A stretch of DNA of 64,000 nt from Jiangella endophytica. GTDB lineage: Bacteria > Actinomycetota > Actinomycetes > Jiangellales > Jiangellaceae. The first letter of the stretch is position 1. Each line of letters starts with the position of its first letter. Position numbers and translations under genes: made by a program. The stretch is from NCBI RefSeq assembly GCF_003427025.1, contig NZ_QVAI01000013.1, positions 1 to 64,000 of the forward strand, read 5' to 3'. Below the pieces are notes generated by a model, which did not search any database, was not told where the DNA came from, and worked only from the letters and a program-made list of their open reading frames with translations. Positions 9,797 through 46,796 of the stretch are shown piece after piece.

Positions 9797-9877
9797 ACCA
9801 GGCGCACGCCTTCGGCCCTGGGCCCTGTCCCGTCCGCTTCGTAGCGTCGACGGTGAAGCACAGCTGAGGAGGACGTC

Positions 9878-10764: not shown

Positions 10765-10839
10765 GGCGTCCACGGCCGCAGGACGGTGCGAGTGGCGACG
10801 GCGCCGGCGAGGTGCGCCGTCCGGAGAACGGAGCCGACG

Positions 10840-11781
10840 ATGCCGAACGTGCTCGAAGCGACCACCAGGCCGATCGTGGCCGGTATCGGCGGCCACCCGG
10901 ACAGCGAGGCCGCCCTGCACTGGGCCGTGACGGCCGCTCGGGCGCGCCGGGCGCCGCTGCGCGTCGTGCTGGTCGCCGACGAGCCCGAGCTGCAGCGGTA
11001 CGTGTCGTACCGGCCGGCGATCGACGGCGAGACGTTCCTGGTTCCCGCCCGGCCTCGCCGGCATCCGTACGACGACCTCGACCGCGCGGTCGCGTTCGCG
11101 CGGCTGCACCTGCGGCGCGGCACCGTCACCGGACGGCGGGCACCCGGCTCCGCCGCGACGGCACTGATCGAGGACTCCGTCGATGCGGCCATGCTCGTCG
11201 TCGGCACCCGCCGGCGCGGCCCGCTCGCGGCCGCCGCGCTGGGGTCGGTGAGCGCGACGGTGGCCGCCCACGCGCGGTGCCCGGTGGTCGTCGTCGGCAC
11301 CGCGCCGCCGGAGTCCACCACCGACCTGCCGGTCGTCGCGGGCATCACGGACGACCGGGCCGCCGACGGCGTCCTCGACTTCGCCTTCCGCGAGGCGTCC
11401 GCGCGCCGGGTGCCGCTCTCCGCCGTCCATGCCGCCCCGCCCGGCCTCGGCGAGCCGCGCCACCCCGGCAGGTTCTTCGGCGGCCTGGTGCCGACGCTGG
11501 CCGCCCGGCTGGCGAACTACGCCTCCCGGTATCCCGGCGTTCCGGTGACGTCACACCTGTCCGGCGCCGACGCGGCCGGCGAGCTGGCCGCCGCGAGCGC
11601 GCGGGCTCAGCTGGTCGTCGTCGGGTCCCGCGGGCGGGGCCGGGTGTCCGGTCTGGTGCTCGGCTCGGTCGGGCAACACCTGCTGCACCGGGCGCACAGC
11701 CCCGTCGCCGTCGTCCACCCCTCCCGGGCGCGCCCGCCGCTGCGGGCCAGGACCCGGCCGGCCGCCGGCTCCGCCTCGTAG
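10840..11781 (+). CDS. Universal stress protein, tandem USP domains
   Basis: This 313-residue protein has two USP domains. The first (IVAGIGGHPDSEAALHWA) has a degenerate G-x-D motif with Gly in place of Asp. The second ends with VVGSRGRGRVSGLVLGSVGQ, an intact ATP-binding loop. An alanine/arginine-rich tail follows. ATG 10840 is preferred over the in-frame GTG at 10786 because GGAG lies six bases before it and the USP fold begins a few residues later. It is followed by a strong hairpin. Confidence 0.88.
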   Translation: MPNVLEATTRPIVAGIGGHPDSEAALHWAVTAARARRAPLRVVLVADEPELQRYVSYRPAIDGETFLVPARPRRHPYDDLDRAVAFARLHLRRGTVTGRRAPGSAATALIEDSVDAAMLVVGTRRRGPLAAAALGSVSATVAAHARCPVVVVGTAPPESTTDLPVVAGITDDRAADGVLDFAFREASARRVPLSAVHAAPPGLGEPRHPGRFFGGLVPTLAARLANYASRYPGVPVTSHLSGADAAGELAAASARAQLVVVGSRGRGRVSGLVLGSVGQHLLHRAHSPVAVVHPSRARPPLRARTRPAAGSAS

Positions 11782-11790
11782 GACGAGTGT

Positions 11791-11823
11791 CTTCGGTCCC
11801 GCCCGGGCCGGGACCGAAGGCCC
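11791..11823. terminator. Hairpin terminator overlapping a DosR-like box
   Basis: Arms 11791-11801 and 11809-11819 (CTTCGGTCCCG / CGGGACCGAAG) are perfectly complementary around CCCGGGC, just after the USP stop. The right arm also forms GGGACCGAAGGCCC (11810-11823), which fits GGGNCNNNNGNCCC. The element could therefore terminate the USP transcript, bind the dormancy regulator, or both. Confidence 0.6.
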
Positions 11824-11843
11824 TGTCCGCACCCCGCGCGACG

Positions 11844-11944
11844 GGCGCATCGTGAAACTGACGCCCACCAGCCTGGTGAGGCAAACCCCGGAGCGTTGGG
11901 GGATGGCGGCCGATGCGCCGCGAAACACACCATCGCCGCGATGG
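11844..11944 (+). other. Structured non-coding segment upstream of PIG-L gene
   Basis: The 291-bp gap between the USP and PIG-L genes contains nested complementarity. GGCGCATCG (11844-11852) pairs with CGATGCGCC (11911-11919) and encloses CACCAGCCTGGTG (11866-11878) and a CCCC/GGGG hairpin (11886-11902). A separate hairpin CCATCG/CGATGG spans 11930-11944. The multi-branched layout resembles a riboswitch or small RNA, but it matches no class I can name. The transcribed strand is a guess from the downstream gene. Confidence 0.35.
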
Positions 11945-12002
11945 GTCGGCTCCGGCGGGATCACCCGGCTGGTGGGCGTCCGGGCGCCGGTGACCGGCTT
12001 TC

Positions 12003-12016
12003 GGGCCGAAGGTCCC
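12003..12016. promoter_or_regulatory. DosR-like box upstream of PIG-L/USP operon
   Basis: GGGCCGAAGGTCCC is the best palindrome of the set in its context, lying within TTTCGGGCCGAAGGTCCCGA. It is 56 bp before the PIG-L start and would control that gene and the two USPs behind it. Confidence 0.55.
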
Positions 12017-12072
12017 GACATCGCCGCCTTCGGTCTCTACGACCGGGGCCGTCCCGGGTGGACATTGGAGGT

Positions 12073-12729
12073 ATGGGTCACCACGCCAGACCAGTGCCAG
12101 CGGTGCGGCGGCTGCTCGTCGTCTGCGCCCACCCGTACGACGCGACGTTCGCGCTCGGCGGCGTGATCGGCGCCTTCGCCGACGCCGGGACGTCCGTCCA
12201 CCTCCTGTGCCTGACGCACGGGCGACGTCCCGACCCGACACCGCGGCGGCGGATCGACCGCGCCCGCGACCTCGGCCGGGCCGTACGGCGGCTCGGCGCC
12301 GAGGACGTCGTCCTGCTGGATCACTCCCCCGGGATGCTCGGGGCCGCGACGACCGATGAACTGGCCGCCGAGATCCAGCAGGCCGCGGCCGCCGCCGACG
12401 CGCTGCTCGTCGTCGACGCCACCGGCCGCGACGCCCACCCCGACCATGTGCGGACGATGCGCGCGGCCTACCGCGCGGCGGCCGCCACCGGCGCCGTCCT
12501 GTACGCCTGGACGCTGCGACCGGCCGAGCCCGGGACCGCCCGCCAGGAGCTGATGGTCGACGCCGACCGCGAGCGGCAGCGCGCGGCCATCGCCTGCCAC
12601 ACCGGCCTGCCCGAGGACGACCCGCTGCGCAGCCGCTGGATGCGGAACCAGGACTCGGCCGAACGGCTGGTCGTGCTCCGGGACGAGCCGCTCCTCACGC
12701 CCGCGAACCGGCCGGCTGGGACGCCGTAA
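12073..12729 (+). CDS. PIG-L family deacetylase-like protein
   Basis: This 218-residue protein has the PIG-L/LmbE fold: LLVVCAHPYDATFALGGVI at the N-terminus and RDAHPDHVRTMRAAYRAA in the second half. The canonical metal motif is AHPDDE. Here it reads AHPYDA, so two of the acidic residues are replaced, while the later H-P-D-H is intact. Zinc hydrolysis of an N-acetyl sugar or thiol may therefore be altered or lost. GGAGGT precedes ATG 12073. It leads an operon with two USP genes under a DosR-like box. Confidence 0.8.
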   Translation: MGHHARPVPAVRRLLVVCAHPYDATFALGGVIGAFADAGTSVHLLCLTHGRRPDPTPRRRIDRARDLGRAVRRLGAEDVVLLDHSPGMLGAATTDELAAEIQQAAAAADALLVVDATGRDAHPDHVRTMRAAYRAAAATGAVLYAWTLRPAEPGTARQELMVDADRERQRAAIACHTGLPEDDPLRSRWMRNQDSAERLVVLRDEPLLTPANRPAGTP

Positions 12730-12751
12730 CGCCTCGCAGGCGGGCGTCGTC

Positions 12752-13624
12752 ATGACCGGCTCGGACTCCATCGTCGTCGGCGTCGACGGCTCTCCGGACA
12801 GCGGCATCGCCCTCACCTGGGCGGCCGCCGAGGCGTACCGCCGCGACGTGCCGCTGTGCGTCGTGCACGGCCTCTGGCTGCCGATGGCGGCCACGCCGTT
12901 CAGCGGCGCCACCCTCGTCCTGGCGCCGGACGAGCTGCACGCCTACGCCACCCAGGTCCTCGACTGGGCCCGGCAGCGGGTGAAGGACGAGTGGCCCGCC
13001 GTCGATCTGGTCACCTACCTGGTCCACCGAGCGCCGGTCGAGGCACTGCTCGACGCGGGCCGCGACGCCGCGCTGACGGTCGTCGGCACCCGCGGCCTGA
13101 GCGACCTCGGCGCTCTGCTGCTCGGCTCGGTGAGCGGACGGCTCACCGCCCGCTCGAAGCGGCCCGTGGTCGTCGTCCCGCGGCAGCTCTCCCCCGGCGA
13201 CGGGACCATCGTCGTCGGCGTCGGCTGCTCGGCGCACAGCGACGCCGCGCTCCGGTTCGCGCTCACCGAGGCCCGCCTGCGATCGGCCCCGGTGGTGGCG
13301 GTCAGCGCGGTGCAGGCGCGGGCGGTGCCGACCGTCGGTCCCGACGGCGTCACCCAGGCGGCAGCGCGGGAATGCCTATACGCCGAGGCGATGGCGGCCG
13401 AGGCCATCGCCCGCGCCCGCGCGGCCACCGGCTCCCGGGCCGACGTCACCGTGCGTGTGGTGTGCGGCCGCCCGATCGACGTCGTCGTCGAGGCCGGCCG
13501 GACCGCCGAGCTCGTCGTCGTCGGCACCCGAGGCCGTGGCGAGGTGCGCAGCCTGCTGATCGGCTCCACCAGCCACGGCGTCCTGCACCACGCGACCAGG
13601 CCGGTCGCCGTCGTCCACGCCTGA
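12752..13624 (+). CDS. Universal stress protein, tandem USP domains
   Basis: This 290-residue protein has two intact UspA folds: SIVVGVDGSPDSGIALTWAA with loop VVGTRGLSDLGALLLGSVSG, then IVVGVGCSAHSDAALRFAL with loop VVGTRGRGEVRSLLIGSTSH. It is 22 bp after the PIG-L stop and 10 bp before the next USP. The two neighbouring USPs share much sequence and look like a recent tandem duplication. Confidence 0.92.
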   Translation: MTGSDSIVVGVDGSPDSGIALTWAAAEAYRRDVPLCVVHGLWLPMAATPFSGATLVLAPDELHAYATQVLDWARQRVKDEWPAVDLVTYLVHRAPVEALLDAGRDAALTVVGTRGLSDLGALLLGSVSGRLTARSKRPVVVVPRQLSPGDGTIVVGVGCSAHSDAALRFALTEARLRSAPVVAVSAVQARAVPTVGPDGVTQAAARECLYAEAMAAEAIARARAATGSRADVTVRVVCGRPIDVVVEAGRTAELVVVGTRGRGEVRSLLIGSTSHGVLHHATRPVAVVHA

Positions 13625-13634
13625 GGAGGAGTCC

Positions 13635-14522
13635 ATGTCCAACACCGTCGTCGTCGGGGTCGACGGCTCGGCCGACAGCGGCCACGCCCTCAGCTGGGCC
13701 GCCGCGGAGGCACGCCGGCGCGGCAGCACCCTCGACACCGTCTTCGGGCTCTGGGCGCCGCTGACCGCGGTCCCGTTCGGCGGACGGGCGGTCGTCCCGC
13801 CGGACGACGAGCTCCGCGCGTACTCCGCGCTCGTCCTCGACCGGGCCGAGCGGCGGGTCGAGGAGGAGCAGCCCGGTGTCGACGTGAGCAGGGTCCTCGT
13901 CCTGCGTCCGGCGGTCGAGGCGCTGCTCGACGTCTCCCACGACGCCGCGCTGGTCGTCGTGGGGCGGCGCGGGCTCGGGGCGTTCGGCGCGATGCTGCTC
14001 GGCTCGGTGAGCGCGCGGGTGGCCGCCCGCTCGACGGTGCCCGCCGTCGTGGTGCCCGAGCCCGCCGGCCCGGGCGACGGCACGATCGTCGCCGCGGTCG
14101 ACGGATCGCCGCACAGCGATGCCGCGCTGCGCTTCGCGCTGACCGAGGCGCAACGCCGCTCGACCTCCGTCGTGGCGCTGACCGCCTACCAGCCGGCGCC
14201 GCTCATGCTGCCGGTGACCGACCCCGCCGCCGTCGACCGGGCCGCCGCCGCGGAGGAGCACGACGCCGAGCGGCTGGTATCCGACGCGGTCGGCCGGGCC
14301 AGGGCGGCGACCGGGTCCGCCGCACCTGTCACCGTCCGTGCCGGGGCCGGGCACCCGGCCGAGGTCATCGCCGACGCCGGCCGTGACGCCGAGCTCATCG
14401 TGGTCGGCTCGCGCGGGCGGGGCCAGGTGCGCGGCCTGCTGCTCGGCTCCACCAGCCAGGGCGTCCTGCACCGCGCCCGGCGGCCGGTCGCCGTCGTGCA
14501 CGCCCCGGCCGGCTGCTCATGA
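13635..14522 (+). CDS. Universal stress protein, tandem USP domains
   Basis: This 295-residue paralogue of the preceding gene has domain starts TVVVGVDGSADSGHALSWAA and IVAAVDGSPHSDAALRFAL, and loops VVGRRGLGAFGAMLLGSVSA and VVGSRGRGQVRGLLLGSTSQ. GAGGAG lies before ATG 13635. Its stop codon is inside the left arm of a long palindrome that ends the operon. Confidence 0.92.
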   Translation: MSNTVVVGVDGSADSGHALSWAAAEARRRGSTLDTVFGLWAPLTAVPFGGRAVVPPDDELRAYSALVLDRAERRVEEEQPGVDVSRVLVLRPAVEALLDVSHDAALVVVGRRGLGAFGAMLLGSVSARVAARSTVPAVVVPEPAGPGDGTIVAAVDGSPHSDAALRFALTEAQRRSTSVVALTAYQPAPLMLPVTDPAAVDRAAAAEEHDAERLVSDAVGRARAATGSAAPVTVRAGAGHPAEVIADAGRDAELIVVGSRGRGQVRGLLLGSTSQGVLHRARRPVAVVHAPAGCS

Positions 14523-14570
14523 TCATCAATGATGCGACCACGTATGGGTGGTCGGATCATTGATGATCAT
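14519..14570. terminator. Long palindromic bidirectional terminator
   Basis: Arms 14519-14541 and 14548-14570 are 23 nt, complementary except for one G-G mismatch, around a 6-nt loop. They begin ATGATCATCAATGAT, strikingly AT-rich for this genome. The hairpin overlaps the USP stop and lies 4 bp from the stop of the convergent amidase. A related ATGATCATCAACGATCG occurs in the core of the three large repeats. Confidence 0.75.
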
Positions 14571-14574
14571 GGAA

Positions 14575-16245
14575 TCAGCGCGCGGCGCCGAGATAGGTGC
14601 GCCAGCCACCGTAGGAGGTGATGTCGGGGGCCCCGTCGAGCGCGATCGGCTCGCAGAGGAAGCCCGCGACGCCCCGGCCGTCGTCGAGGCGGACGGAGCC
14701 GATGCCCATGGGCGCGGGCAGGCCGGCGACGAACGCGCCGAAGCCGGACGCGGGCAGCCGCCACAGCTCGCCCTCGATCGCGGCCCCGCCGGTCGCCACC
14801 CGGGCCAGGCCGGGCTTCGGCGGCGTGGTCGGCAGCGCGTGCAGCCGGTACGACGGCTCCGTCCGCACGCCGGCGACGAAGCTGCCGCCGGCGGAGACCA
14901 GCTGGTGGTTCAGCGGCTGTCCGCGCAGGTGCGCCCCGACGACGAGCAGGTCGACCGGCGGGGCGGCGATCCGCTCCGCGAGCTGCGCCAGCGTGCGGTC
15001 GGCGAACGGGTCGCCGGTGAGCATCACCCCGAACGGCAGGCCGGCGACGGCACCGGCCGGGACGGCGAGCGCGCTGCGGTCCAGCAGGTTCGCGAAGTTC
15101 GTGTAGCGGCCCATGCGCGCGTTGGCGCCGACCGGGTCCGCGGCGACCTCGGCGAGGGTGGGATGCCAGGTGGTCGTCGGGGTGAGCAGCGCGGCCGTGC
15201 CGTCCAGCCGGGACAGCCCTTCGCGGCCGAGGCGGTCCAGCCGCTCACGGTCGCGGACGTAGTCGACGGCGCGGACCCGCTCGCCGGCGAGGATGATCGC
15301 CGCGACGGTCGGATCGAGGTCGCCGCCGACGAGTTCGGGGTGGGCGGCGATGAAGTCGCCCACCGCCGCGGTGCGCTCGGCGACGAACGCGCCGTCGTAC
15401 AGCAGGGCTGCCGCGTCCAGCAGCGGCGCGATGTCGACCTCGACGATCTCGGTGCCGGTGGCGGCGAGGTCCGCCACGACGCGGGCAAAGGCGTCGCCCC
15501 AGCCGCCGGCCAGCCCGTCCAGGTGCTCGGCCGTCGGTACGGCGACCCGGGGCACGGCGGGCAGGGCCGGCGCCGGGCGGTCTGGGCGGGTCAGCGGGTC
15601 GGCGCCGTCGGGGCCGCTCATGAGCTCGGCGGCGCGCCGGGCCAGGCCGAGGCCGCGAGCGAACACGGTGACGCAGTCGAGGGTGCGGCAGGCCGGGACG
15701 ACCCCCGTCGCCGGCACCAGCCCGAGGGTGGGCTTGACGCCGTAGACCCCGTTGAGGGCCGCCGGCACGCGACCGGAGCCGGCGGTGTCGGTCCCCAGGG
15801 CGAGATCGACGATCCCGAGCGCCGTCGCGACGGCCGAGCCGGAGCTGGACCCGCCGGAGACGCGCGCCGGATCCCAGGCGTTGCGCACGGCGCCGAACGG
15901 GCTGCGGGTGCCCACCAGGCCGGTGGCGAACTGGTCGAGGTTGGTCTTGCCGATCACGACGGCGCCGGCCGCCCGCAACCGCGCGACGGTTGATGCGTCG
16001 TGCTCCGGGTCGTACGCGAACGCCCGGCTGCCCGCCGTCGTCGGCAGACCGGCGACGTCGATGTTGTCCTTGACCGCCAGCACCGTCCCCGCGAGCGGGA
16101 GCCGCTCCCCCGCCTCGGCGCGCCGGTCGGTCTCCGCGGCCTCGGCCAGCGCCGCCGCCTCGTCGCGCAGCGTGATCCAGACCTCGGGCCGGCCGACCTC
16201 GCCCACCCTGGCGTAGGCCGCCGCTACCGCGTCGGTACTGGTCAC
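14575..16245 (-). CDS. atzF: Allophanate hydrolase-type amidase
   Basis: This 556-residue protein has an amidase-signature domain (about 40-430) and a C-terminal domain that follows LLVVGAHLRGQPLNHQL, the hallmark of AtzF/DUR1,2 allophanate hydrolases. The Ser-cisSer-Lys triad is present: Lys59 in VLAVKDNIDVAG, Ser133 in SGGSSSGSA and Ser157 in GTDTAGSGR. The known reaction is allophanate to ammonia and carbon dioxide via the C-terminal domain. The GTG start at 16245 overlaps the UAAP stop as GTGA. It is last in a nine-gene operon with no urea or guanidine carboxylase. Confidence 0.88.
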   Translation of the reverse strand: MTSTDAVAAAYARVGEVGRPEVWITLRDEAAALAEAAETDRRAEAGERLPLAGTVLAVKDNIDVAGLPTTAGSRAFAYDPEHDASTVARLRAAGAVVIGKTNLDQFATGLVGTRSPFGAVRNAWDPARVSGGSSSGSAVATALGIVDLALGTDTAGSGRVPAALNGVYGVKPTLGLVPATGVVPACRTLDCVTVFARGLGLARRAAELMSGPDGADPLTRPDRPAPALPAVPRVAVPTAEHLDGLAGGWGDAFARVVADLAATGTEIVEVDIAPLLDAAALLYDGAFVAERTAAVGDFIAAHPELVGGDLDPTVAAIILAGERVRAVDYVRDRERLDRLGREGLSRLDGTAALLTPTTTWHPTLAEVAADPVGANARMGRYTNFANLLDRSALAVPAGAVAGLPFGVMLTGDPFADRTLAQLAERIAAPPVDLLVVGAHLRGQPLNHQLVSAGGSFVAGVRTEPSYRLHALPTTPPKPGLARVATGGAAIEGELWRLPASGFGAFVAGLPAPMGIGSVRLDDGRGVAGFLCEPIALDGAPDITSYGGWRTYLGAAR

Positions 16246-16928
16246 GGACTCGTCACGATCATCCGCAGGGGCGTGCAACTGAAGTCGTTGCAGGGGTTGT
16301 TCATCTGCGGGCAGTTCGAGACGACCACCAGCACGTCCCGTTCGGCGCGCAGCGCCACCCGCTTGCCCGGGGCGGACATCCCGTCGACGATGCCGAGCGA
16401 GCCGTCCGCCTCCACCGGCACGTTCATGAACCAGTTGAGGTTCGACACGAGATCGCGCACGCCGAGCCCGTGCCGGGCCGCCTCGGCGAGGAAGTTCTCC
16501 CGGCACGCGTGCTGGTAGGCCGTGTGGTGGCCGTAGCGCAACGTGTTGGACTCCTTGCCGCAGGCGCCGCCGATGGTGTCCTGCCGGTCCACCTCGTTGC
16601 CGGCCACCGTCATGAGCGGCCGGCCGAGGTTGCTGCGCAGGACAGTGCCGGTGCGCACGTAGACGTTGCCCTGCCAGGCGATGGTGTCAGCCGCGCTGTA
16701 CCGCTCGGCGGTGTCGTCAGCGGCGTAGAGCAGGCAGTCGGCCGACTGGTTGCCGCCGACGTCGACGATGGTCAGCACGTCGCCGGTGGCCACGACCCCG
16801 GACCACGCGGCTCGCGGGGCGACCCGTTCGTCCAGCACGACCCGGCCCGGCACGAGCGGGCCGGACCAGTCGAGCGGGCTGTCCGGGGCGTGGACGGGCC
16901 GCGGCGGGACCGTCGTCGTGAGGCTCAT
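16242..16928 (-). CDS. DUF1989 protein (UAAP2/carboxyguanidine deiminase subunit-like)
   Basis: This 228-residue DUF1989 protein has VDVGGNQSADCLLYAADDTAERY, GRPLMTVAGNEVDRQDTIGGACGKESN and the C-terminal NCPQMNNPCNDFSCTPLRM, all diagnostic of the urea-amidolyase-associated protein group. In guanidine-degrading bacteria the two UAAP proteins form a carboxyguanidine deiminase that feeds allophanate hydrolase. It is 17 bp from its partner gene and overlaps the allophanate hydrolase start. AAGGAGCACG precedes ATG 16928. Confidence 0.88.
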   Translation of the reverse strand: MSLTTTVPPRPVHAPDSPLDWSGPLVPGRVVLDERVAPRAAWSGVVATGDVLTIVDVGGNQSADCLLYAADDTAERYSAADTIAWQGNVYVRTGTVLRSNLGRPLMTVAGNEVDRQDTIGGACGKESNTLRYGHHTAYQHACRENFLAEAARHGLGVRDLVSNLNWFMNVPVEADGSLGIVDGMSAPGKRVALRAERDVLVVVSNCPQMNNPCNDFSCTPLRMIVTSP

Positions 16929-16945
16929 CTCGTGCTCCTTCGTGC

Positions 16946-17791
16946 TCACAGCCCGGCCAGGCCGGCGTAGGCGATCGTGTTGCGGTAGGCCCTCTCCCGC
17001 TCCGGTGAGGCCACGGCGACGGCGTCGTCGAGGGCGGTGGGCCTGGACCGCCAGGCGTGCACGCGCAGCGGCCCGGCGACGTAGTCCGGACGGGGGTCGC
17101 GTGGGTGCGGCGCGTTCGCGATCAGGACGATCAGCGGCAGCTCCGCGAGCAGGTCGACGCGGCGGCCGGGACCGGCCGAGCCGGTCCACTCGAGCGTGCC
17201 GTCGGCGGCGACCCGCACCCCTTTGAAGAACGACACCGCGGGCGGCAGGTCGCGCGTCTCCAGCCCGTGCTTGGCACCGGCCAGCCGCAGCAGCGCGTGG
17301 CCGGACGGGGACGGGCCCTCGGCCGCCGCGTCGCCGTACTTCGCCTCGTTCCAGGCGTCGCTGCTCGCGCCGCAGAACGCGTCGTGCCGCCCGGACGTGT
17401 CGGCGACGATCGTCGCCAGCACCCGGCCGTCGCCCGACAGCAGCGGGTGGCCCGCGCCGAGGTAGGCCTGCCACGGGATCTTCTGCGTGTCGGCCACGTT
17501 GAGCCGCTCGCCGGGCTCCACCGCGTTGTGGACGAGGACGCTCGCGCACGCCTCGCCGTCGGCGTCCTCCAGGCGCAGCCGGGTGCCGCGTGCCACCCGC
17601 AGGTGCGTGTAGCCGCCTGGCGCGACGGTCTCCGCCCAGGTCAGCGTGGCCGGGTCGATCCCCTCCGGTGGGTACGGCGTGTCCGCGGGCGGCAGGTAGG
17701 GCATCCACGCCGAGACCGCAGCCCGGCCGCGCGCGTCCGCCCGGGCCCGGCCCACGTCGGCGAGCGCTCCCTCACGTCCTCCTGTCGTCAT
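16946..17791 (-). CDS. DUF1989 protein (UAAP1/carboxyguanidine deiminase subunit-like)
   Basis: This 281-residue partner of the next gene has ETVAPGGYTHLRVARGTRLRLED, NVADTQKIPWQAYLG, a SDAWNEAKYG motif and PPAVSFFKGVRV, as in UAAP1. The pair probably forms a heteromeric metal-dependent deiminase acting on a carboxylated guanidine or similar ureido compound. ATG 17791 overlaps the HyuB stop as ATGA. Here it sits with an ATP-dependent hydantoinase instead of the usual biotin carboxylase, so its substrate may be a hydantoin-derived ureide. Confidence 0.86.
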   Translation of the reverse strand: MTTGGREGALADVGRARADARGRAAVSAWMPYLPPADTPYPPEGIDPATLTWAETVAPGGYTHLRVARGTRLRLEDADGEACASVLVHNAVEPGERLNVADTQKIPWQAYLGAGHPLLSGDGRVLATIVADTSGRHDAFCGASSDAWNEAKYGDAAAEGPSPSGHALLRLAGAKHGLETRDLPPAVSFFKGVRVAADGTLEWTGSAGPGRRVDLLAELPLIVLIANAPHPRDPRPDYVAGPLRVHAWRSRPTALDDAVAVASPERERAYRNTIAYAGLAGL

Positions 17792-19413
17792 GGACCTGTC
17801 TCCTCGCTCGTCGGTGGTTCTCCGTATCCGCCGCCGCCCGCGGCGGTGAGCCGCACGACGTCGCCCCGGCGGACCGCCAGGGACGACGTGTCGTACGGCA
17901 GCGGCTCCCAGGCACCGCCGGCCCGGCTCACCAGGACGCTCGCCGGGGCACCGGGCCCGCCTCCGGCCACGCCGCGCGCGGCGTGCTCGGGCCGGCGTTG
18001 CTCCGCCGCGACCCGGCCGCTGGCGTCGTCGGCGAGCAGCTCGTAGTCGCGCCGCACCGCACGGCCGCCCGGCCACGCGCCCGGGCCGCCGCTGCCGGGC
18101 ACCAGAGCGCAGGACCGCACCCGCCACGGGTACTCCAACTCGATGACCTCGGCGGAGATGAGCGCGCAGTTGGACGTGTACGAGTCGATGCCGTCGTCGC
18201 CGGGCGCGCCACGGCGCGCGCCGCCGCCACCACCGACGGTGTCCATGAGCGTCTTCGCCGCGGCCGTGCGAGGGTCGACGGCGCGCATCAGCAGAACGGG
18301 GAACGAGACGTGGCTCGCCGCGACGGCGCGGTCCGGCAGCAACTCGCCGAGCGCGCGGAAGACGACATCGGTGAGCACCTGCACGGCCATGTGCCGCGAC
18401 ATCACCGCCGCCGGCCGGCGCGGCCGGAACAGCGACCCGTCGGGCACCCGGGCCTCGACGTGGCGCATGTAGCCGTGGTTCTGCCGCACCCCAGGGCCGA
18501 GGAAGCAGCGCAGCGCGTAGTACAGACTCGAGTAGGTGCTGGACCACGGCACGTTGAACGTCCCGGTGGTCTGCGCCGCCGACCCCGCGAGGTCCACGAC
18601 CATGCGACCGGCCTCGATGGTCACGGCGGCCTGGACCCGCAGCGGCTCGTCGTAGTGCAGGCCGTCGCCGTCGAGGAAGCCGGTCGCCGTCACCGTGCGC
18701 CCGGGCCAGCCGCGCAGAACGGCCTCGGCGCGCGCCGACGTGTCGTCGATGAGGTCGTCGGCGGCGTCGCGCAGCGTTCCGGCGCCGTGCCGTGCCGCCA
18801 GCTCGCGCAGCCGTTCGACGCCACGCCGGCAGGCCGAGAGCTGGGCGGTGAGGTCACCTTCCACGGACTCGGGGTCGCGCACGTTGCGCAGCACGACCTC
18901 CCACAGCGCGTCGTTGCGGACGCCGCGTTCGAACAGCCGCACCGGCGGGAGCTGCAGGCCCTCCTCGAACAGATCGCGCGAGGCCTCGGTGTGCCCCGCG
19001 ACCGCGCCCCGGTTGCGCGCCGAGATGCCGCCGATGTCGACGTGGTGCGCGACGGTCGCGACGTAGCCGAGCAGCTCCCCGCGGGCGTACACGGGCGTGA
19101 ACACCTCGAGGTCGGGCAGGTGGGTCGCGCCGGCGTAGGGGTCGTTGGTCACGACGACGTCGCCGTCGGCCAGCGGTCCCGTGCGGGCCAGCGCGCCGGC
19201 GAGGGCGAACTCGAGCGTCCCGGCCTGCGCCGGGATGAGGTGGGAGTCGGCGACGAGACGCCCGTGCACGTCGAGGAAGCCGCAGGAGAAGTCCAGCATC
19301 TCGCGGATCAGGGGCGAGAACGAGCTGCGCTGCAGCAGCAGCGACATCTCGCCGACGACGGCCTCGAAGCCGTTCCACAGCAGCTCGCGCACCGCGGGCT
19401 CGGTCACTCGCAT
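17788..19413 (-). CDS. hyuB: Hydantoinase B/oxoprolinase family subunit
   Basis: This 541-residue protein is homologous along its length to HyuB/N-methylhydantoinase B. It shows LLLQRSSFSPLIREMLDFSC, IPAQAGTLEFALAG, VVTNDPYAGATHLPDLEVF and a glycine-rich TVGGGGGARRGAPGDDG near the centre. With HyuA it catalyses ATP-dependent opening of cyclic amides (N-methylhydantoin, 5-oxoproline, caprolactam). The start at 19413 overlaps the HyuA stop by ten bases. The C-terminus has the SLAVRRGDVVRLTAAGGGGYG motif typical of the family. Confidence 0.92.
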   Translation of the reverse strand: MRVTEPAVRELLWNGFEAVVGEMSLLLQRSSFSPLIREMLDFSCGFLDVHGRLVADSHLIPAQAGTLEFALAGALARTGPLADGDVVVTNDPYAGATHLPDLEVFTPVYARGELLGYVATVAHHVDIGGISARNRGAVAGHTEASRDLFEEGLQLPPVRLFERGVRNDALWEVVLRNVRDPESVEGDLTAQLSACRRGVERLRELAARHGAGTLRDAADDLIDDTSARAEAVLRGWPGRTVTATGFLDGDGLHYDEPLRVQAAVTIEAGRMVVDLAGSAAQTTGTFNVPWSSTYSSLYYALRCFLGPGVRQNHGYMRHVEARVPDGSLFRPRRPAAVMSRHMAVQVLTDVVFRALGELLPDRAVAASHVSFPVLLMRAVDPRTAAAKTLMDTVGGGGGARRGAPGDDGIDSYTSNCALISAEVIELEYPWRVRSCALVPGSGGPGAWPGGRAVRRDYELLADDASGRVAAEQRRPEHAARGVAGGGPGAPASVLVSRAGGAWEPLPYDTSSLAVRRGDVVRLTAAGGGGYGEPPTSEETGP

Positions 19414-21455
19414 CGGGCCTCCTCGCGTTCCAGGACCATGCCGACCCCGTCGGCCCGGGCCACGCGCCAGCCGGACGGGATGAGCGTCGTGGTGTCGGTC
19501 TGCTGCACGATCGCCGGTCCGCGCAGCCCCGTCTCGACGTCACCGCGGTCGACGACGACGTACTCGACCGGCGCGCCCGAGGCGTCCCAGCCGGCGCGGC
19601 GGCGGGCCGGAGCCCGTTCGCGCGACGACCGGCCGTCGGCGGCCCAGTCGGCCGCGGCACGCGGCACGACGGCCCGCACGCGCAGCGTCACCAGCTCGAT
19701 CGCGACGTCGTCCCAGGCGTGGCCGTACACCGACCGGTGCGTCCGGCGGAAGGCCACCTCCAGCCGCTCGACGTCGCCGGGACCCAGCGCGCATGCCGCG
19801 GACACCGGGATCGTCAGCTCGTAGGCCTGCCCGGCGTAGCGCAGGTCGGCGTCGAGGCTCAGCGCCGGCTCGGCGGCCACCCCGGCGCCGCGCAGCAGGC
19901 TCGTGGCCTCCTCGACCAGCGCGCCGACGAGCGCGTCGACCTGCCCGTGGTCCAGCGCGCGCAACGGCGCCACGTGCGTGCGGCTGAGGTCGTACCGCCC
20001 GTCACCCATCAGCAGCCCCAGCGCCGACGTCAGCCCCGGGTAGCGCGGCACGACGACGCGCCGGATGCCGAGGTCCGCCGCGATGGCGCAGGCGTGCAAC
20101 GGGCCGGCGCCACCGAATGCCATCAGCGCGTGGTCGCGCACGTCGATCCCGCGAGCGACCGTGACCGCGCGCAGGGCGTCGGCCATCCGGCCGTCGGCGA
20201 TGCTGACCACGCTCGCGGCCGCGGTCTCGCCGCCCAGGCCCAGCGGCGCCGCGACGTCCCGGTCGATCGCCGCCCGGGCCCGGACCGGGTCGAGCGGGAG
20301 CGCGCCGCCCAGCAGGCCGGCCGGGTCGATGGAGCCGCGGACGACGTGTGCGTCGGTGACGGTCGCGTGCCGGCCGCTGCCGTAGGCGGCCGGTCCCGGA
20401 TCGGCGCCCGCGCTGTCGGGACCGACGGCGAGCGAGCCGAAGTCGTCGACCCGGGCCAGCGACCCGCCACCGGCGCCGATCGGCAGGACGTCGATCTGCG
20501 GCAGCGCGACCGGCAGGCCCGCGACCTCGCTGCGGTAGCGACGCCGCGCCTGCCCGTCCTCGATCAGCGCGACGTCGGCGCTGGTGCCTCCGACGTCGAG
20601 CATGACGACGTCCGGTTCACCGAGCCGCCGGCCCAGCTCGGCGGCCGCGACGGCGCCCGCAGCCGGGCCGGAGACGAGGAGTGCGACCGGCAGGTCCTTG
20701 GCCAGTGCCGCGGGGATCACCCCGCCGGTCGACGTCATCAGCTGGAACGCGCCGGTGAAGCCTCGCTCGCGCAGCCGCTCCTCCAGGCGCGCGAGGTAGC
20801 CGCCGCTGCGCGGCAGCAGGGCGGCGTTGAGCACGGTGGTGGCCGCTCGCGGGTACTCGCGGAACTCAGGCGCGACCGACGACGACATCGTGACGGGCAG
20901 TCCGGGCAGCTCCGCCCGCACGATCGCCGCCGCCCGGCGCTCGTGCGCGGCGTCGGCGAACGAGAACAGGAACACGATCGCGACCGCGTCGACGGTGCCG
21001 GCGAGCTCGCGCGCCGCCCGGCGGACGTCATCCTCGGCGAGCGGCGTGACGACCGCGCCGTCCACGCCGACCCGCTCACGCACTCCGTGGACCCGCTCGC
21101 GAGGCACGATCGCCGCGGTCTTGGGCCGCCAGGGGTCGTAGAGGTCGGGCCGCTGCTGGGTGCCGATCTCGAGGATGTCCTCGAACCCGGCCGTGACGAG
21201 CAGCCCGACACGGGCGTAGTCGCCCATGATGACGGCGTTCGTCGCGACCGTCGTGCCGTGGACGACGGCGGTGATGTCGCCCGGCGCCAGCCTCGACCGT
21301 TCGAGCAGGCGGTCGACCGCGGTGACGAGGGCGATCCCGGGATCGGACGGCGTCGACCTGACCTTGTGGACGTGCAGGGTGCCGTCGGCCGTGAGCAGCG
21401 CCGCGTCGGTGTGGGTGCCGCCGATGTCGACGGCGACGACGTTGCGCCCGCTCAC
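19404..21455 (-). CDS. hyuA: Hydantoinase A/oxoprolinase family subunit
   Basis: This 683-residue actin-like ATPase subunit has the N-terminal phosphate loop VVAVDIGGTHTDAALL and VVHGTTVATNAVI. The second nucleotide motif is VVMLDVGGTSADVALI, and MAFGGAGPLHACAIA is the family signature. It phosphorylates the cyclic amide before hydrolysis with HyuB. The GTG at 21455 overlaps the oxidase stop (GTGA). It is encoded with HyuB, two DUF1989 proteins and an allophanate hydrolase, which suggests a hydantoin- or ureide-degrading route. Confidence 0.92.
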   Translation of the reverse strand: MSGRNVVAVDIGGTHTDAALLTADGTLHVHKVRSTPSDPGIALVTAVDRLLERSRLAPGDITAVVHGTTVATNAVIMGDYARVGLLVTAGFEDILEIGTQQRPDLYDPWRPKTAAIVPRERVHGVRERVGVDGAVVTPLAEDDVRRAARELAGTVDAVAIVFLFSFADAAHERRAAAIVRAELPGLPVTMSSSVAPEFREYPRAATTVLNAALLPRSGGYLARLEERLRERGFTGAFQLMTSTGGVIPAALAKDLPVALLVSGPAAGAVAAAELGRRLGEPDVVMLDVGGTSADVALIEDGQARRRYRSEVAGLPVALPQIDVLPIGAGGGSLARVDDFGSLAVGPDSAGADPGPAAYGSGRHATVTDAHVVRGSIDPAGLLGGALPLDPVRARAAIDRDVAAPLGLGGETAAASVVSIADGRMADALRAVTVARGIDVRDHALMAFGGAGPLHACAIAADLGIRRVVVPRYPGLTSALGLLMGDGRYDLSRTHVAPLRALDHGQVDALVGALVEEATSLLRGAGVAAEPALSLDADLRYAGQAYELTIPVSAACALGPGDVERLEVAFRRTHRSVYGHAWDDVAIELVTLRVRAVVPRAAADWAADGRSSRERAPARRRAGWDASGAPVEYVVVDRGDVETGLRGPAIVQQTDTTTLIPSGWRVARADGVGMVLEREEARCE

Positions 21456-22402
21456 CGCAGCGCCACCAGGTCCGCCGCCGCCCGGGCGGAGCCCCACGAC
21501 AGCGCCACTCCGGCGCCGCCGTGCCCGTAGCAGTACACGACGTCGCGTCCGCCCGTCCGCTCCGCGGCGACCCGCACCTCGGGACGCACGGGCCGGTGGC
21601 CGACCGCCCGGCCGACGACGCGGGCGCCGGCGAGCGCGGGCTCGGCACGGACCGCCCGTTCGACGAGCTCCCGTTCCAGCACGGGATCGGGATCGGGGTC
21701 CCAGACGCCGTCCTGCGCCGGGCCGCCGACCACGACGTCATCGAAGCGCGGGACGACGAACAGCGGCGCGAGCGGGCCGTCGCGGACGATCGTGGTGCGG
21801 GTCAGTCCCGGGTTCTCCAGCACCGCGACCTGACCGCGGACGGGGCGCAACGCGTCGTCGCCGGCCAGCGCTCCCGAGCCGCACCCCGCTGCCAGGACGA
21901 CGACGTCGCCGGCCGGTCCGCCGTCGTCCAGCCGCGCCACCTCGCGCCGTTCGATGTCCACGCCCGCCTCGGCACAACGCGCTCGGAGCCAGGGCAGGTA
22001 CCGGCTGGTGTCGACCAGCGGGATGCTCGCCACCGTGCCCACGCGACAGCCCGGCGGCAGCTCCTGCGCCGTCGCCTCGCGCAGCGGCGGGGTGAAGCCG
22101 CGCAGCCACGGGTCCGGCGTCGCCGCCGCCACGCCGACGGTGCGGGCCGGCTGCTCGCGCACGCCCGTCTCCGGACCGGCGTCGCGGCGCAGCCGCGCGA
22201 GCGTCGCATAGGCCCATGCGCGCACCCGCTCGCTGCGCTCCACGAGCGGCACCGCCCACAGCGACGCGGCCGCCGCCGAGGCCGTCCCGGCGCCGGTCTC
22301 GCGCGCGACGACCCGCACCGGGTGGCCCCGTTCGGCCAGCACGAGCGCGCAGCTGAGGCCGACGACGCCGGCCCCGATGACGGTCACCGCGCGTCGCGTC
22401 AC
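21452..22402 (-). CDS. FAD-dependent D-amino-acid oxidase-like protein
   Basis: This 316-residue flavoprotein has the N-terminal Rossmann motif VTVIGAGVVGLSCALVLAERG, IPLVDTSRYLPWL, VVVLAAGCGSGAL, the RGQVAVLENPG strand and a C-terminal YCYGHGGAGVALSWGSA that matches the D-amino-acid oxidase FAD/substrate loop. It probably oxidises a D- or N-substituted amino acid to the imine, which would connect with the RidA genes upstream. GTG 22402 overlaps the preceding stop. Confidence 0.85.
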   Translation of the reverse strand: MTRRAVTVIGAGVVGLSCALVLAERGHPVRVVARETGAGTASAAAASLWAVPLVERSERVRAWAYATLARLRRDAGPETGVREQPARTVGVAAATPDPWLRGFTPPLREATAQELPPGCRVGTVASIPLVDTSRYLPWLRARCAEAGVDIERREVARLDDGGPAGDVVVLAAGCGSGALAGDDALRPVRGQVAVLENPGLTRTTIVRDGPLAPLFVVPRFDDVVVGGPAQDGVWDPDPDPVLERELVERAVRAEPALAGARVVGRAVGHRPVRPEVRVAAERTGGRDVVYCYGHGGAGVALSWGSARAAADLVALR

Positions 22403-23418
22403 GAGTCGCCCGCCGGGCGGTCGAGCAGCCGCCGCGGCTCGTCCACGAGCATCCGGTCGAGGCGCCGCGCCGGGATCCCGCTATCGCGCAGCGCGGGCAC
22501 GATCCGCGCCAGCAGGTGACCGTAGCCGTGGCCGCCGTAGGTCCGCAGCTGCGCCTTCGTCCACAACGACCCGCCCAGGACGTGCCGCGACCCGGGATGC
22601 TCCGCACAGAACCGGGTGAAGAAGTCCAGACGCTCGGCGTCGGAGGGATTGCGGACGCGGTCCAGGTGACCGGCCTCCGTGCCGAAGCACATCTCGAGCA
22701 CGGCGCCCGCGGCGGCGAGCTCGGCCCAGTACGCGGCGTCCATGTACTCGTCGGCGTTGGTGAACACGACCCGCTCGGCCGGCAGGCCCTCGGCGGCGCA
22801 GAGGGCGAGCACCTCCGGGCCGCGGGCGGTGTCGGGGTCGAGCCGGATCGAGACGGCGGCGCCGGCCCGGACGGCGGCCCGCGCGGCGGCGCGGAGCATG
22901 GAGCGCTCCTCCTCCGGCAGGTCCGCCGTCGTGCCCATGATGCCGAGCAGGCCGGCGCGGTATCCGGTGCCCGGCACGCGGTCCAGCAGCGCACCGGCCA
23001 GGTGCCGCTCCAGGCCGTCCTCGTCGAGCTCGGCGATCCAGCCGGGCAGGGTGCGCCGGATGTAGGCGCCGTAGCTGCAGACGATCGTCATCCCGGAGCG
23101 GCGGGCCACGTCCGGCAGACCGGCGTGGCCCGGGCCGAGGCCCCACGACGTGTCCTCGACGAGCGCACGCTGGCCGAGTTCGACGGCATGGGCCAGTTCG
23201 GCGACGGCGACGTCCGGCTCGTCCAGCCGCAGGTTGTCCGCCAGCGCGAGCATGTTCGAGCGCAGGTAGTCCTGCGTTTCGGGGCCTACCCGCTCCGATG
23301 CCGGGCCGGGCGCGGCGCCGTCGCGACGCAGCGCCGACGCGTCGCTCAGGACGTGGTCGTGCATCGACGTGACGCCCAGCCGTTCCGCCGGGACGGGGCC
23401 CAGGACGGTCTCGATCAC
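22399..23418 (-). CDS. Phosphotriesterase-family protein, metal ligands mostly lost
   Basis: This 339-residue protein has the phosphotriesterase-related start (IETVLGPVPAERLGVTSMHDHVLSD) and end (GGHGYGHLLARIVPALRD). The first HxH (HDH) is present. The bridging Glu/Lys is replaced (LLGIMGTT where relatives have GEIGT). The His ligands are replaced by Arg (VSIRLD) and Asn (VFTNADEY), and the Asp by Ser (LGGSLWT). It is therefore unlikely to use the normal binuclear site. The paralogue at 39794 shares the same losses, while those at 47429 and 48454 are intact. Confidence 0.85.
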   Translation of the reverse strand: MIETVLGPVPAERLGVTSMHDHVLSDASALRRDGAAPGPASERVGPETQDYLRSNMLALADNLRLDEPDVAVAELAHAVELGQRALVEDTSWGLGPGHAGLPDVARRSGMTIVCSYGAYIRRTLPGWIAELDEDGLERHLAGALLDRVPGTGYRAGLLGIMGTTADLPEEERSMLRAAARAAVRAGAAVSIRLDPDTARGPEVLALCAAEGLPAERVVFTNADEYMDAAYWAELAAAGAVLEMCFGTEAGHLDRVRNPSDAERLDFFTRFCAEHPGSRHVLGGSLWTKAQLRTYGGHGYGHLLARIVPALRDSGIPARRLDRMLVDEPRRLLDRPAGDS

Positions 23419-23930
23419 GCGCGTCCCTCCGGTGCGGGGTCTCGGGTCTCGACGACCGCGACCAGCTCGAACACGTTGCCGCCGGACAGGCTCAGGACGC
23501 CGATGCTGGCCGACGTCCCCCGCCCGGCCTCGGCACCGAAGACCTCGACGAACAGGTCGAGCGCGCCGTTCGCGACGAGGTTGACGTCGGTGAACTCAGG
23601 GGTCGTCACGACGAAGCAGAGCGTGCGCACGAACGCGGTGACCTCGTCGAGCGTGCCGGCGGCGTAGCGGATGAGGCCGAGCACGTTGACCGCCGCCGCA
23701 CGGGCGGCGAGGTAGCCCTGCTCCTGCGTGACGCCGGCGCCGACCCGGCCGGGGTACAGCTTGATGCCCTGCCGGTCCTCCGGCGTCATGCCGCTGATCG
23801 TGACCGTGCGGCCGGAGCGATGGAAGGCCTTCATCGGGCTGTAGCGCTCGCCGTAGGGCGGATCGGCGTAGTCGGGGATCACCAGGCCGAGCTCGGCCAC
23901 GCGCTGCTCAGGGGTGGGGGTCGTCGGCAC
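23415..23930 (-). CDS. RidA/YjgF family protein, first gene of hydantoinase operon
   Basis: This 171-residue YjgF-fold protein has VTISGMTPEDRQG, LAARAAAVNVLGLIRYAAGTLDEV and NGALDLFVEVFG. RidA proteins hydrolyse reactive enamine/imine intermediates using a conserved Arg. The equivalent position here seems to be Ser (TSASIGV against the usual RSAVG/RASIG), so this copy may bind a ligand without deaminase activity. GTG 23930 follows GGAGGAGCCTC. It is divergent from a close paralogue; both start with IPDYADPPYG, and they share one operator region. Confidence 0.88.
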   Translation of the reverse strand: MPTTPTPEQRVAELGLVIPDYADPPYGERYSPMKAFHRSGRTVTISGMTPEDRQGIKLYPGRVGAGVTQEQGYLAARAAAVNVLGLIRYAAGTLDEVTAFVRTLCFVVTTPEFTDVNLVANGALDLFVEVFGAEAGRGTSASIGVLSLSGGNVFELVAVVETRDPAPEGRA

Positions 23931-23997: not shown

Positions 23998-24498
23998 ATG
24001 GCCGGTGCGGAACAGCGGGCCCGGGAGCTCGGGCTCGCCATCCCCGACTACGCCGATCCGCCGTACGGCCGGCGCTACGGGCCCATGAAGCCGTTCCATC
24101 GCATCGGTGACCTGCTGCAGCTCAGTGGCCTGACCCCCGAGAACCGCGCCGGCGAGCGGCTGCATCCCGGCGTCGTCGGCGTCGACGTGACCATCGAGCA
24201 GGGCTACGCAGCAGCCCGGCTGACCGCGATCCACACGCTCGGGATGATCCGTTACGCCATCGGCTCGCTCGACAACGTCGCGAGCCTGTCCCGTGCCCTG
24301 TGCTTCGTGGTCTGCCCGCCGGGGTTCGAGCTGCCGCACGAGGTGTCCAACGGCGCCAGCGACCTCTTCCTCGAGGTCTTCGGCGCCGACGTCGGCAGCA
24401 TGGGCCGCGCGTCCATCGGCGCCACGACTCTGTCGCGCAACAACTGCTTCGAGCTCTGGCTCGACCTGGAGTGCGTGCCCGAGCCGACCGCCGTATGA
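23998..24498 (+). CDS. RidA/YjgF family protein
   Basis: This 166-residue paralogue of the divergent RidA gene shares IPDYADPPYG, RYGPMKPFHR and the YjgF core (LQLSGLTPENRAG, AARLTAIHTLGMIRYAIGSLDNV). The putative catalytic Arg is retained in GRASIGA, unlike its neighbour. It may detoxify imines made by the amine and amino-acid oxidases of the cluster. GGGGAGG precedes ATG 23998. The stop overlaps the MFS start (ATGA). Confidence 0.88.
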   Translation: MAGAEQRARELGLAIPDYADPPYGRRYGPMKPFHRIGDLLQLSGLTPENRAGERLHPGVVGVDVTIEQGYAAARLTAIHTLGMIRYAIGSLDNVASLSRALCFVVCPPGFELPHEVSNGASDLFLEVFGADVGSMGRASIGATTLSRNNCFELWLDLECVPEPTAV

Positions 24499-25727
24499 GG
24501 GGCGAGCACGACATCACCCGCACCGTCCCGTTCTGGCTGATCTTCGCCGCCTCCGCCCTCGGCGCGATGACGAACGCGGCCAGCACGCCGATCATCCCGG
24601 TCTACGTCGAACGCGTCCTGGGTGGCGGCACCACACTGTCGGGGGTGGTCATCGCCCTCGCGGCCGTCTCGTCGATGATCGCGATGCCGGTCGCCGGCAT
24701 GCTGGGCGACCGGCGCGGGTACCGGACGGTCGCCCTGGCCGGCGGTGCACTGGCGGCGCTCGGCATGGTGCTGCTGGCGGCGCTGCCGTCGCTATGGGGC
24801 GCCGGCCTGGGCCGCATCCTGTTCGGCCTCGGCAACGCCGCGGCGATGACGCTCGTCATGACCTGGCTGGTCGCCATGGCACCGGCGGCGCAACGCGGCA
24901 AGGCGCTGAGCATCTTCGGGCTGAGCGTGTGGATCGGGCTCGCGCTCGGACCGCAGGTCGGCACGGCCGTGAACCAGGCCGCCGGACCCGTCGCCGTGTT
25001 CGTCGTCTGCGCCACGCTGGAGCTGGCCACCGCCACGCTGATCGCCTTCCTGCCGCGTCCGTCACGGCCGGTGTTGCCCGACGTGACGGCACCGATCCCC
25101 CGGCGCACCGTCGCGGCCGGGCGCGCCTTCGTCGCCGTCTGGGTCCCCGGCATCGCCGCGGCGGCGGCCTGGTGCGGCGAAGGCCTCATGCTCGGCTTCC
25201 TCATCGTGCATCTCGAAGGCGGCGGCGTGCCGTCGAGCGGCCTGCTGAGCGCCGCGTCCGTCTTCGGCGTCTTCTCCGTCGCCGTCATCGCGGCCCGCAT
25301 CGCCCTCGCGTCCCTGCCCGACCGCCTCGGCCCGCTGCGCGCGACCGCCATCTCCCTGTGCGCGCTCGCGGCCGGCCTGGCCACGCTCGGGTTCGCCCGC
25401 AGCTTCTGGACCGCGGCCCTCGGCGCCGTGCTCATCGGGGTCGGCTTCTCACCGCTCTACCCCTCGCTGACGATGCTCGCCACGCGCGGCCTGACCCCGG
25501 AGAACCGTGCGCTCGGCCTGGGCATGTTCTCCAGCTTCACCAGCGTCGGCTACGCCAGCGGCGCCCTCATCGGCGGCCTCGTCATCGCCGTCGCCTCCAC
25601 GACATGGGCGTTCACTCTGGTCGCCGCCCTGCAGGTCGCCGCCCTGGCCGCCGTCACGATCTTCACCCGCGACGACTCACCACGCGAACGCCCGGACGGC
25701 GACGAACCGCGCGACCCCGCCGCCTGA
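24495..25727 (+). CDS. MFS transporter (12 TM)
   Basis: This 410-residue protein has about twelve hydrophobic segments and the MFS loop 2-3 motif GMLGDRRGYRTVAL, repeated weakly as ALASLPDRLGPLRAT in the second half. It probably exports or imports a catabolite handled by the coupled RidA gene, to which it is joined by an ATGA overlap. It is the only plus-strand transporter in the catabolic region. A 19-bp tandem array and a large repeat follow its stop. Confidence 0.92.
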   Translation: MRGEHDITRTVPFWLIFAASALGAMTNAASTPIIPVYVERVLGGGTTLSGVVIALAAVSSMIAMPVAGMLGDRRGYRTVALAGGALAALGMVLLAALPSLWGAGLGRILFGLGNAAAMTLVMTWLVAMAPAAQRGKALSIFGLSVWIGLALGPQVGTAVNQAAGPVAVFVVCATLELATATLIAFLPRPSRPVLPDVTAPIPRRTVAAGRAFVAVWVPGIAAAAAWCGEGLMLGFLIVHLEGGGVPSSGLLSAASVFGVFSVAVIAARIALASLPDRLGPLRATAISLCALAAGLATLGFARSFWTAALGAVLIGVGFSPLYPSLTMLATRGLTPENRALGLGMFSSFTSVGYASGALIGGLVIAVASTTWAFTLVAALQVAALAAVTIFTRDDSPRERPDGDEPRDPAA

Positions 25728-28646: not shown

Positions 28647-28650
28647 CGCC

Positions 28651-46793: not shown

Positions 46794-46796
46794 GAC

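Follow-up and report, generated by a model that had tools for sequence, protein, structure and literature searches.

A deiminase and allophanate hydrolase gene set without its carboxylase in a catabolic island of Jiangella endophytica

The carboxyguanidine-deiminase-type subunits UAAP1 and UAAP2 were reportedly long taken for proteins of urea metabolism before being assigned, by Schneider in 2020, to the guanidine carboxylase pathway. A 64,000-nucleotide stretch of Jiangella endophytica DNA (positions 1 to 64,000 of contig NZ_QVAI01000013.1, hereafter the window) holds genes for this pair and for the allophanate hydrolase AtzF in a gene run at 14575-23930 that has no carboxylase. The same run encodes HyuA and HyuB, two subunits of the ATP-dependent hydantoinase/oxoprolinase type, and a first-pass annotation had let them take the place of the carboxylase. 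What, then, supplies the deiminase? On a UAAP2 tree, carboxylase-free UAAP1-UAAP2-AtzF sets require at least three origins, each in a genome bearing the catabolic island in which the run lies. From the gene content of related loci, HyuAB appears to be an exchangeable module, made up with a D-amino-acid-oxidase-like (DAO) protein, and not a stand-in for the carboxylase. The explanation that we favour, with about even confidence, is that UAAP1-UAAP2-AtzF and DAO-HyuA-HyuB are two separable modules in one gene run inside an amine-catabolic island, and that the deiminase would still use carboxyguanidine, supplied by an island hydrolase instead of a biotin carboxylase, with HyuAB, the oxidase and RidA forming a separate branch.

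The gene run and the missing carboxylase

All genes of the run lie on the minus strand, are intact and are tightly coupled. HyuA (19404-21455, GTG start), the ATP-binding subunit, scores far above the Pfam cut-offs for Hydant_A_N and Hydantoinase_A and carries the motifs DIGGTHTD at 10, DVGGT at 287 and GADPGP at 350. It overlaps by 10 bp with HyuB (17788-19413; PF02538, Hydantoinase_B, 497.2 bits), the metal-site subunit, in which D41, H98, D101 and H123/H124 are present. UAAP1 (16946-17791; TIGR03425, 286.7 bits for a cut-off of 205.95) follows with a 4-bp overlap. UAAP2 (16242-16928; TIGR03424, 314.9 bits for a cut-off of 284.7) comes after a gap of 17 bp, which would become a 4-bp overlap if translation began at an alternative in-frame GTG at 16949. 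AtzF (14575-16245; TIGR02713, 665.8 bits for a cut-off of 511.05), with its amidase and AH_C domains (PF01425, PF21986), overlaps UAAP2 by 4 bp. Profiles and coordinates thus bear out the five-gene set, joined by overlaps of 4-10 bp or a 17-bp gap, that had been described from the sequence. A hairpin 3′ of AtzF (14518-14571; stem of 16 + 7 bp with one mismatch; ViennaRNA, -37.2 kcal/mol over the 70 nt 14506-14575) is a probable terminator.

Upstream of HyuA, three further genes head the run, with a 4-bp overlap at each junction. The first encodes a RidA/YjgF-like protein (RidA1, 23415-23930; PF14588, 35.3 bits, barely above the cut-off of 35) and the second a phosphotriesterase (PTE)-family protein (22399-23418; PF02126, 118.9 bits) keeping two of the six canonical metal ligands (H20, H22). 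The third (21452-22402) encodes a DAO-family FAD oxidase (PF01266, 129.1 bits), whose best solved relatives are D-amino-acid oxidases (1an9, 125.7 bits). The FAD motif GAGVVGL and the stretch RPVRPEVR (residue 270) are present; we take the arginine of the latter to bind a carboxylate.

The genes UAAP1, UAAP2 and AtzF stand in the same order as in the guanidine carboxylase pathway (GC-CgdAB-AtzF), and the models for the deiminase pair (TIGR03425, TIGR03424) and for AtzF with AH_C (TIGR02713, PF21986) recognize them. The difference is that no carboxylase stands here between UAAP2 and AtzF. A profile search of the whole host genome (7.85 Mb, 89 contigs) for a urea/guanidine carboxylase gave 15 matches to TIGR02712, none of which reached the cut-off, so that the lack of a carboxylase seen in the run holds for the genome at this threshold. 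The sole carboxyltransferase-type match, on contig 2, sits in a PxpB-PxpA-PxpC-like operon for 5-oxoprolinase. On contig 56, the match of biotin-carboxylase type is part of an apparent acetyl-CoA-carboxylase set within a polyketide-synthase/fatty-acid-synthase-like cluster. Since both were accounted for in this way, on translations read by eye, a hidden split carboxylase was dismissed. Matches on contigs 30, 1 and 67 cover biotin-carboxylase and carrier parts only. A carboxylase over the TIGR02712 cut-off was not found in the genome of Jiangella anatolica either; within the order, 2 of 22 genomes have one. With no dedicated carboxylase genome-wide, another source must supply the UAAP pair and AtzF, if they work.

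Two sets of genomes bear on how often this state occurs. In a census of the class, UAAP2 scored over its cut-off in 41 of 393 genomes. Of these 41, 35 gave a carboxylase match with an E-value of at most 1e-250, 25 of them over the cut-off and the other 10 with the carboxyltransferase part only. Among the remaining six, direct reading revealed a carboxyltransferase-type gene beside UAAP2 in four (two cut by a contig end) and none in two Jiangella. The second set comes from a search with the PTE-like protein (22399-23418) as anchor, which gave 22 loci in named genomes, including J. anatolica (L042; GTF31) and Streptomyces radicis (L043). UAAP2 is present in 16 of these 22 genomes and a carboxylase in 11 of the 16, one of the 11 being truncated at a contig end and scoring slightly too low for the cut-off. 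The other five lack it (J. anatolica, three Micromonospora and S. shenzhenensis), and the window makes the sixth such genome. The carboxylase-free set lies inside the island in the three Micromonospora and outside it in S. shenzhenensis. If the 22 genomes, the window genome and G320 are counted together as island genomes (24), the carboxylase is missing in 6 of the 18 that have UAAP2, as compared to 0 of 38 census UAAP2 genomes lacking a close island PTE (Fisher p 0.0006, not corrected for kinship). Every one of the 38 has a carboxylase-like gene, although in 14 the gene next to UAAP2 comprises just the carboxyltransferase part. When mapped on a 50-row tree of UAAP2, the carboxylase-free state requires at least three changes, also when only starred branches are counted. 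This tree was built from rows with fetched DNA, the window duplicate being dropped and rows identical in the last 150 residues kept once; rows were scored by hand for presence or absence of a carboxylase, on the basis of locus and genome searches. As a further difference from the guanidine carboxylase pathway, no guanidine riboswitch family was detected at the Rfam gathering threshold in the window, L042, L045 or L046.

In 16 of the 41 census UAAP2 genomes (e.g. G024, G151, G382; L092-L095), the neighbour of UAAP2 matches only the carboxyltransferase part, the biotin-carboxylase part being missing there. Twelve of these come from the carboxylase search of the census genomes and four were read directly, two of the latter being cut by a contig end.

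The UAAP genes are predicted to be intact, and the ratio of nonsynonymous to synonymous substitution rates (dN/dS) shows purifying selection between the two Jiangella. Between the window and J. anatolica, dN/dS was 0.081 for UAAP2, 0.144 for UAAP1, 0.146 for PTE, 0.261 for AtzF and 0.308 for RidA1. The window UAAP2 keeps 59 of 59 residues that are near-invariant in carboxylase-partnered relatives, so that nothing points to a new substrate. Over all six carboxylase-less UAAP2 rows, departures were observed at 2 of the 59 columns, both in J. anatolica. In the corresponding comparison, UAAP1 could be aligned for 46 of the 50 rows (no suitable neighbour was found for two, and the called neighbours of two were too short).

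The DAO-HyuA-HyuB trio in related loci

The position of HyuAB in the run differs from that of the carboxylase in other loci. UAAP1-UAAP2 lies within the fetched stretch in 8 of the 22 loci (L042, L045, L046, L047, L049, L050, L055, L063), and the carboxylase comes after UAAP2 in seven of them. Wherever AtzF is also visible in a carboxylase-bearing island locus (L047, L049, L050, L055, L100, L110), the carboxylase stands between UAAP2 and AtzF. In Jiangella this slot is a bare 4-bp overlap, and the proposal that HyuAB takes over from the carboxylase finds no support.

Five of the 22 loci, and the window, have DAO, HyuA and HyuB as a contiguous block on the downstream side of the PTE gene. The trio directly follows the PTE gene in L043 and L062, and one reversed gene lies between them in L044, L045 and L046. 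Searched genome-wide, a HyuA of at least 72% identity exists in 6 of the 24 island genomes (window, L043-L046, L062), the next best being 46% identical. Many island genomes also hold more distant members of the HyuA family (37-46% identity); in S. shenzhenensis a different family member (42% identical, G411:C49:89349-91331) lies at the edge of the island.

Two relatives separate the modules. The run of J. anatolica consists of RidA1-PTE-UAAP1-UAAP2-AtzF (87-95% identity), with a 4-bp overlap at the PTE-UAAP1 junction. DAO-HyuA-HyuB is absent, and the best HyuA of this genome is only 40% identical. Conversely, S. radicis carries the trio (83-89% identity), and its genome gave no UAAP2 match at E 1e-40. 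In L045 and L046, HyuAB, UAAP1-UAAP2 and a carboxylase all stand side by side. On a tree of PTE, PotA and PotB (the latter two from the island transporter described below), the window groups with J. anatolica (80/76, weak) and then with S. radicis (99/100), within a clade of 13. The trio is present in 6 and UAAP2 in 12 of these 13 genomes, which argues that the modules are gained and lost independently. The trio itself is contiguous, its motifs are intact, it occurs with and without UAAP2, and dN/dS between the window and S. radicis (HyuB 0.161, DAO 0.214, HyuA 0.253) shows purifying selection. Overall, gene content indicates that trio and UAAP modules come and go separately and that HyuAB is an exchangeable module. 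Judged by gene order only, HyuAB would pass for the carboxylase's replacement, a natural misreading that the near relatives correct.

The best solved relatives of HyuAB are hydrolases of the N-methylhydantoinase, caprolactamase and 5-oxoprolinase family. For HyuA, N-methylhydantoinase scores 385.7 bits, 6yra (named 5-oxoprolinase and hydantoinase in its structure file) 339 bits, and carboxylases 272.9 to 171.7 bits. The corresponding values for HyuB are 232.5, 148, and 69.8 to 29.3 bits. All three hydantoinase domains, the ATP motifs and the metal tetrad are found; the ATP motifs and the tetrad are those described for caprolactamase (PMC8453981). Despite scores above the Pfam cut-offs, HyuA and HyuB fall far under every equivalog cut-off listed for them. 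They reach 471.6 and 163.3 bits with the caprolactamase models NF050156 and NF050157 (cut-off 1000), and 281.4 of 1500 (ApcC), 182.2 of 1250 (ApcA) and 71.4 of 1500 (ApcD) bits with those of acetophenone carboxylase. HyuB also differs from caprolactamase in lacking the adjacent cysteine pair reported in PMC8453981.

Could HyuAB nevertheless feed the deiminase? In the first-pass annotation, HyuAB would open a ring with ATP and the product would be the substrate of the UAAP pair. The locus itself speaks for such a supply, as one translationally coupled gene run without a carboxylase, and trio and UAAP2 are found on one contig within ~13 kb in four of the six trio-bearing genomes (window, L045, L046, L062). 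Yet the window-type HyuA is missing in five of the six carboxylase-less genomes, being found among them only in the window, and two of them (M. endophytica and M. haikouensis of the Micromonospora) have no HyuA match at E 1e-90. Moreover, S. radicis retains the trio without UAAP2, the UAAP set of L044 lies on a different contig with its own carboxylase, and trio and carboxylase occur together in L045/L046. The window UAAP2 is also 80-90% identical to carboxylase-partnered UAAP2 of other island loci. As an obligatory supplier of the deiminase, HyuAB is ruled out by J. anatolica, S. radicis, L045/L046 and Micromonospora; as a supplier at all it is improbable, and the hand-over of its product finds no echo in the UAAP2 residues. 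In another scenario, HyuAB would itself be a biotin-free, ATP-dependent guanidine carboxylase making carboxyguanidine in the manner of acetone and acetophenone carboxylases, which belong to the same superfamily; a caprolactamase of the HyuAB family indeed needs bicarbonate, according to PMC8453981. However, the hydrolase matches of both subunits are stronger than the carboxylase matches, and the trio co-occurs with a biotin carboxylase in L045/L046 and exists without UAAP2 in S. radicis, which makes a carboxylase role very improbable.

Candidate sources of the deiminase substrate

Two further explanations leave HyuAB aside. The island could make guanidine that is carboxylated by a promiscuous biotin enzyme, the dedicated carboxylase thereby becoming losable. 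Several biotin-carboxylase domains do remain in the genome, and of the 22 genomes from the PTE scan 16 bear UAAP2, 11 of which keep a guanidine-carboxylase-type gene. Yet such domains are present in 22 of 22 genomes of the order, and the dedicated enzyme is missing, within the census, solely from genomes that bear the island; we consider this explanation unlikely. The UAAP1-UAAP2-AtzF set could also be a decaying remnant left after loss of the carboxylase. The dN/dS of AtzF, which exceeds that of most genes compared, and a changed K174 of UAAP1 in four of the six carboxylase-less rows point in this direction. Against decay, UAAP2 and UAAP1 have the lowest dN/dS of the five run genes compared with J. 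anatolica, frames are open, the UAAP2 residues are kept and the state has at least three origins, so that a remnant has little probability.

The favoured explanation, a hydrolytic source of carboxyguanidine, keeps the deiminase on its usual substrate. According to PMC12186494, UAAP1/UAAP2 convert carboxyguanidine to allophanate with loss of ammonium and AtzF converts allophanate to two ammonia; the same two steps would operate here. With no carboxylase present, and HyuAB not being what the carboxylase-less genomes share, we infer that the source lies within the island: a hydrolase would free carboxyguanidine, or a very close N-carboxyamidine, from a substrate already bearing the group. More specifically, and tentatively, island hydrolysis of a larger compound may release carboxyguanidine or a near analogue, the carboxylase being dispensable for this reason and absent from three or more lineages (Jiangella, Micromonospora and S. 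shenzhenensis). In a separate branch, suggested by the protein families, the DAO protein would make an imino acid, RidA would speed its hydrolysis, as RidA proteins do with imino acids, and HyuAB would open a lactam- or hydantoin-like ring with ATP.

The first candidate for the releasing enzyme is an isochorismatase-like hydrolase (46797-47432), whose gene is present in 24 of the 24 island genomes tested. Its protein family is that of guanylurea hydrolase (GuuH), the match being at family level only. The GuuH route ends in the CgdAB-AtzF steps, as given in PMC9800807; the strains described in that paper keep a guanidine carboxylase, which is missing here. The PTE-like protein at 22399 is the nearest conserved neighbour and was also considered as the enzyme freeing carboxyguanidine, but with four of six metal ligands lost it was ranked below the isochorismatase-like hydrolase. 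As to the substrate, nothing firm came of creatinine, pterins, polyamines or 2-aminopyrimidines. In the fetched stretches, to which the comparison of gene content refers, the genes w33 and W44945 and a dimethylformamidase-like gene are found in five of the six carboxylase-less genomes. The genes w33 and W44945 are not in those of G398, G399, G400 and G412 (4 of the 12 carboxylase-bearing island genomes), where a dimethylformamidase-like protein occurs only at 42-43% identity.

Several observations weigh against the favoured explanation. The candidate isochorismatase-like hydrolase occurs equally in carboxylase-bearing genomes, so that it does not explain the loss, and it scores only 67.1 bits with the biuret hydrolase model (cut-off 370). 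The genes w33, W44945 and the dimethylformamidase-like gene, which follow the loss more closely, are missing from the stretch read in M. zingiberis, while w33 and the dimethylformamidase-like gene are also present in S. radicis, which has no UAAP2. UAAP2 was not found (E 1e-40) in 6 of the 24 island genomes (S. radicis, three Acrocarpospora and two Phytohabitans); the island can therefore do without the deiminase. A search confined to island genomes contributed five of the six carboxylase-less genomes; the unbiased census gives 2 of 41, both Jiangella. In S. shenzhenensis the carboxylase-free set lies outside the island, and the 42%-identical HyuA is found just beside the island stretch. Finally, K174 of UAAP1 is changed in four of the carboxylase-less rows and A126 in a single one, and the dN/dS of AtzF is above the UAAP values.

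If the pair does work without any carboxylase, the presence of UAAP alone would be no proof of guanidine use. Moreover, some biological compound would then have to yield carboxyguanidine on hydrolysis.

The surrounding island

Nearly all of 14575-63163 (~48 kb) looks like one catabolic island, as judged from genes called with a simple caller trained on the window. Its genes recur in several families of actinomycetes, completely or partly and in rearranged order; they were seen in Streptomyces, Microbacterium, Micromonospora, Phytohabitans, Acrocarpospora and Salinibacterium. No description of the island or of this gene arrangement was found in the literature searched. Divergent from the run, on the plus strand, lie a second RidA-like gene (23998-24498; PF14588, 41 bits), conserved in many island loci, and an MFS transporter gene (24495-25727; PF07690, 152.2 bits). 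The rest is on the minus strand. An ABC transporter, here called PotABCD (26719-30684; ABC_tran, TOBE_2, SBP_bac_8), comprises an ATPase, two presumed permeases and a binding protein; the permeases were assigned by position and homology, 28646-29443 having no Pfam match and 27771-28646 being outside the Pfam scan. The middle of the island (30817-43862) encodes a dimethylformamidase-like protein (30817-33099), two Amidohydro_3 proteins (one at 33136-34716), an Amidohydro_2 protein, an amidase, a PTE-like, a GGT-like and two binding proteins. Within the distal part (44945-63163) are found a GMC oxidoreductase, the isochorismatase-like hydrolase, two PTE-like proteins, an aldehyde dehydrogenase and a glutamine-synthetase-like protein. 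The same part also holds a Rieske oxygenase, a Fer2 reductase, a copper amine oxidase, a GGT, a DAO, an aminotransferase-V-like protein, a cupin and a GntR regulator, supported by synteny in relatives. The island totals thus include two RidA-like, four PTE-family and two GGT-like proteins and a second DAO.

The four PTE-family proteins differ in their metal sites. By alignment with 3k2g, and with ligand positions that we take to be the canonical ones, those at 22399-23418 and 39794-40813 have lost four and five of the six ligands, respectively, whereas the proteins at 47429-48448 and 48454-49467 retain the full set. In the PTE-like protein of the run (22399-23418), H20, H22, R192, N221, S284 and the stretch E242-MCFGTE-H251 are conserved without exception across 23 sequences.

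In several Microbacterium loci (L047:8507-9586 and relatives), the island has an extra gene close to those for RidA, encoding a RutA/SfnG-type flavin monooxygenase, which recalls the Rut pyrimidine pathway. In Microbacterium L063 (11054-14188), a TetR-like regulator, recognized by eye, and a sodium:solute symporter precede the guanidine module; neither was seen in the Jiangella run. On the far side of the hairpin, at 8849-14522, lies a gene run that by eye resembles universal stress proteins.

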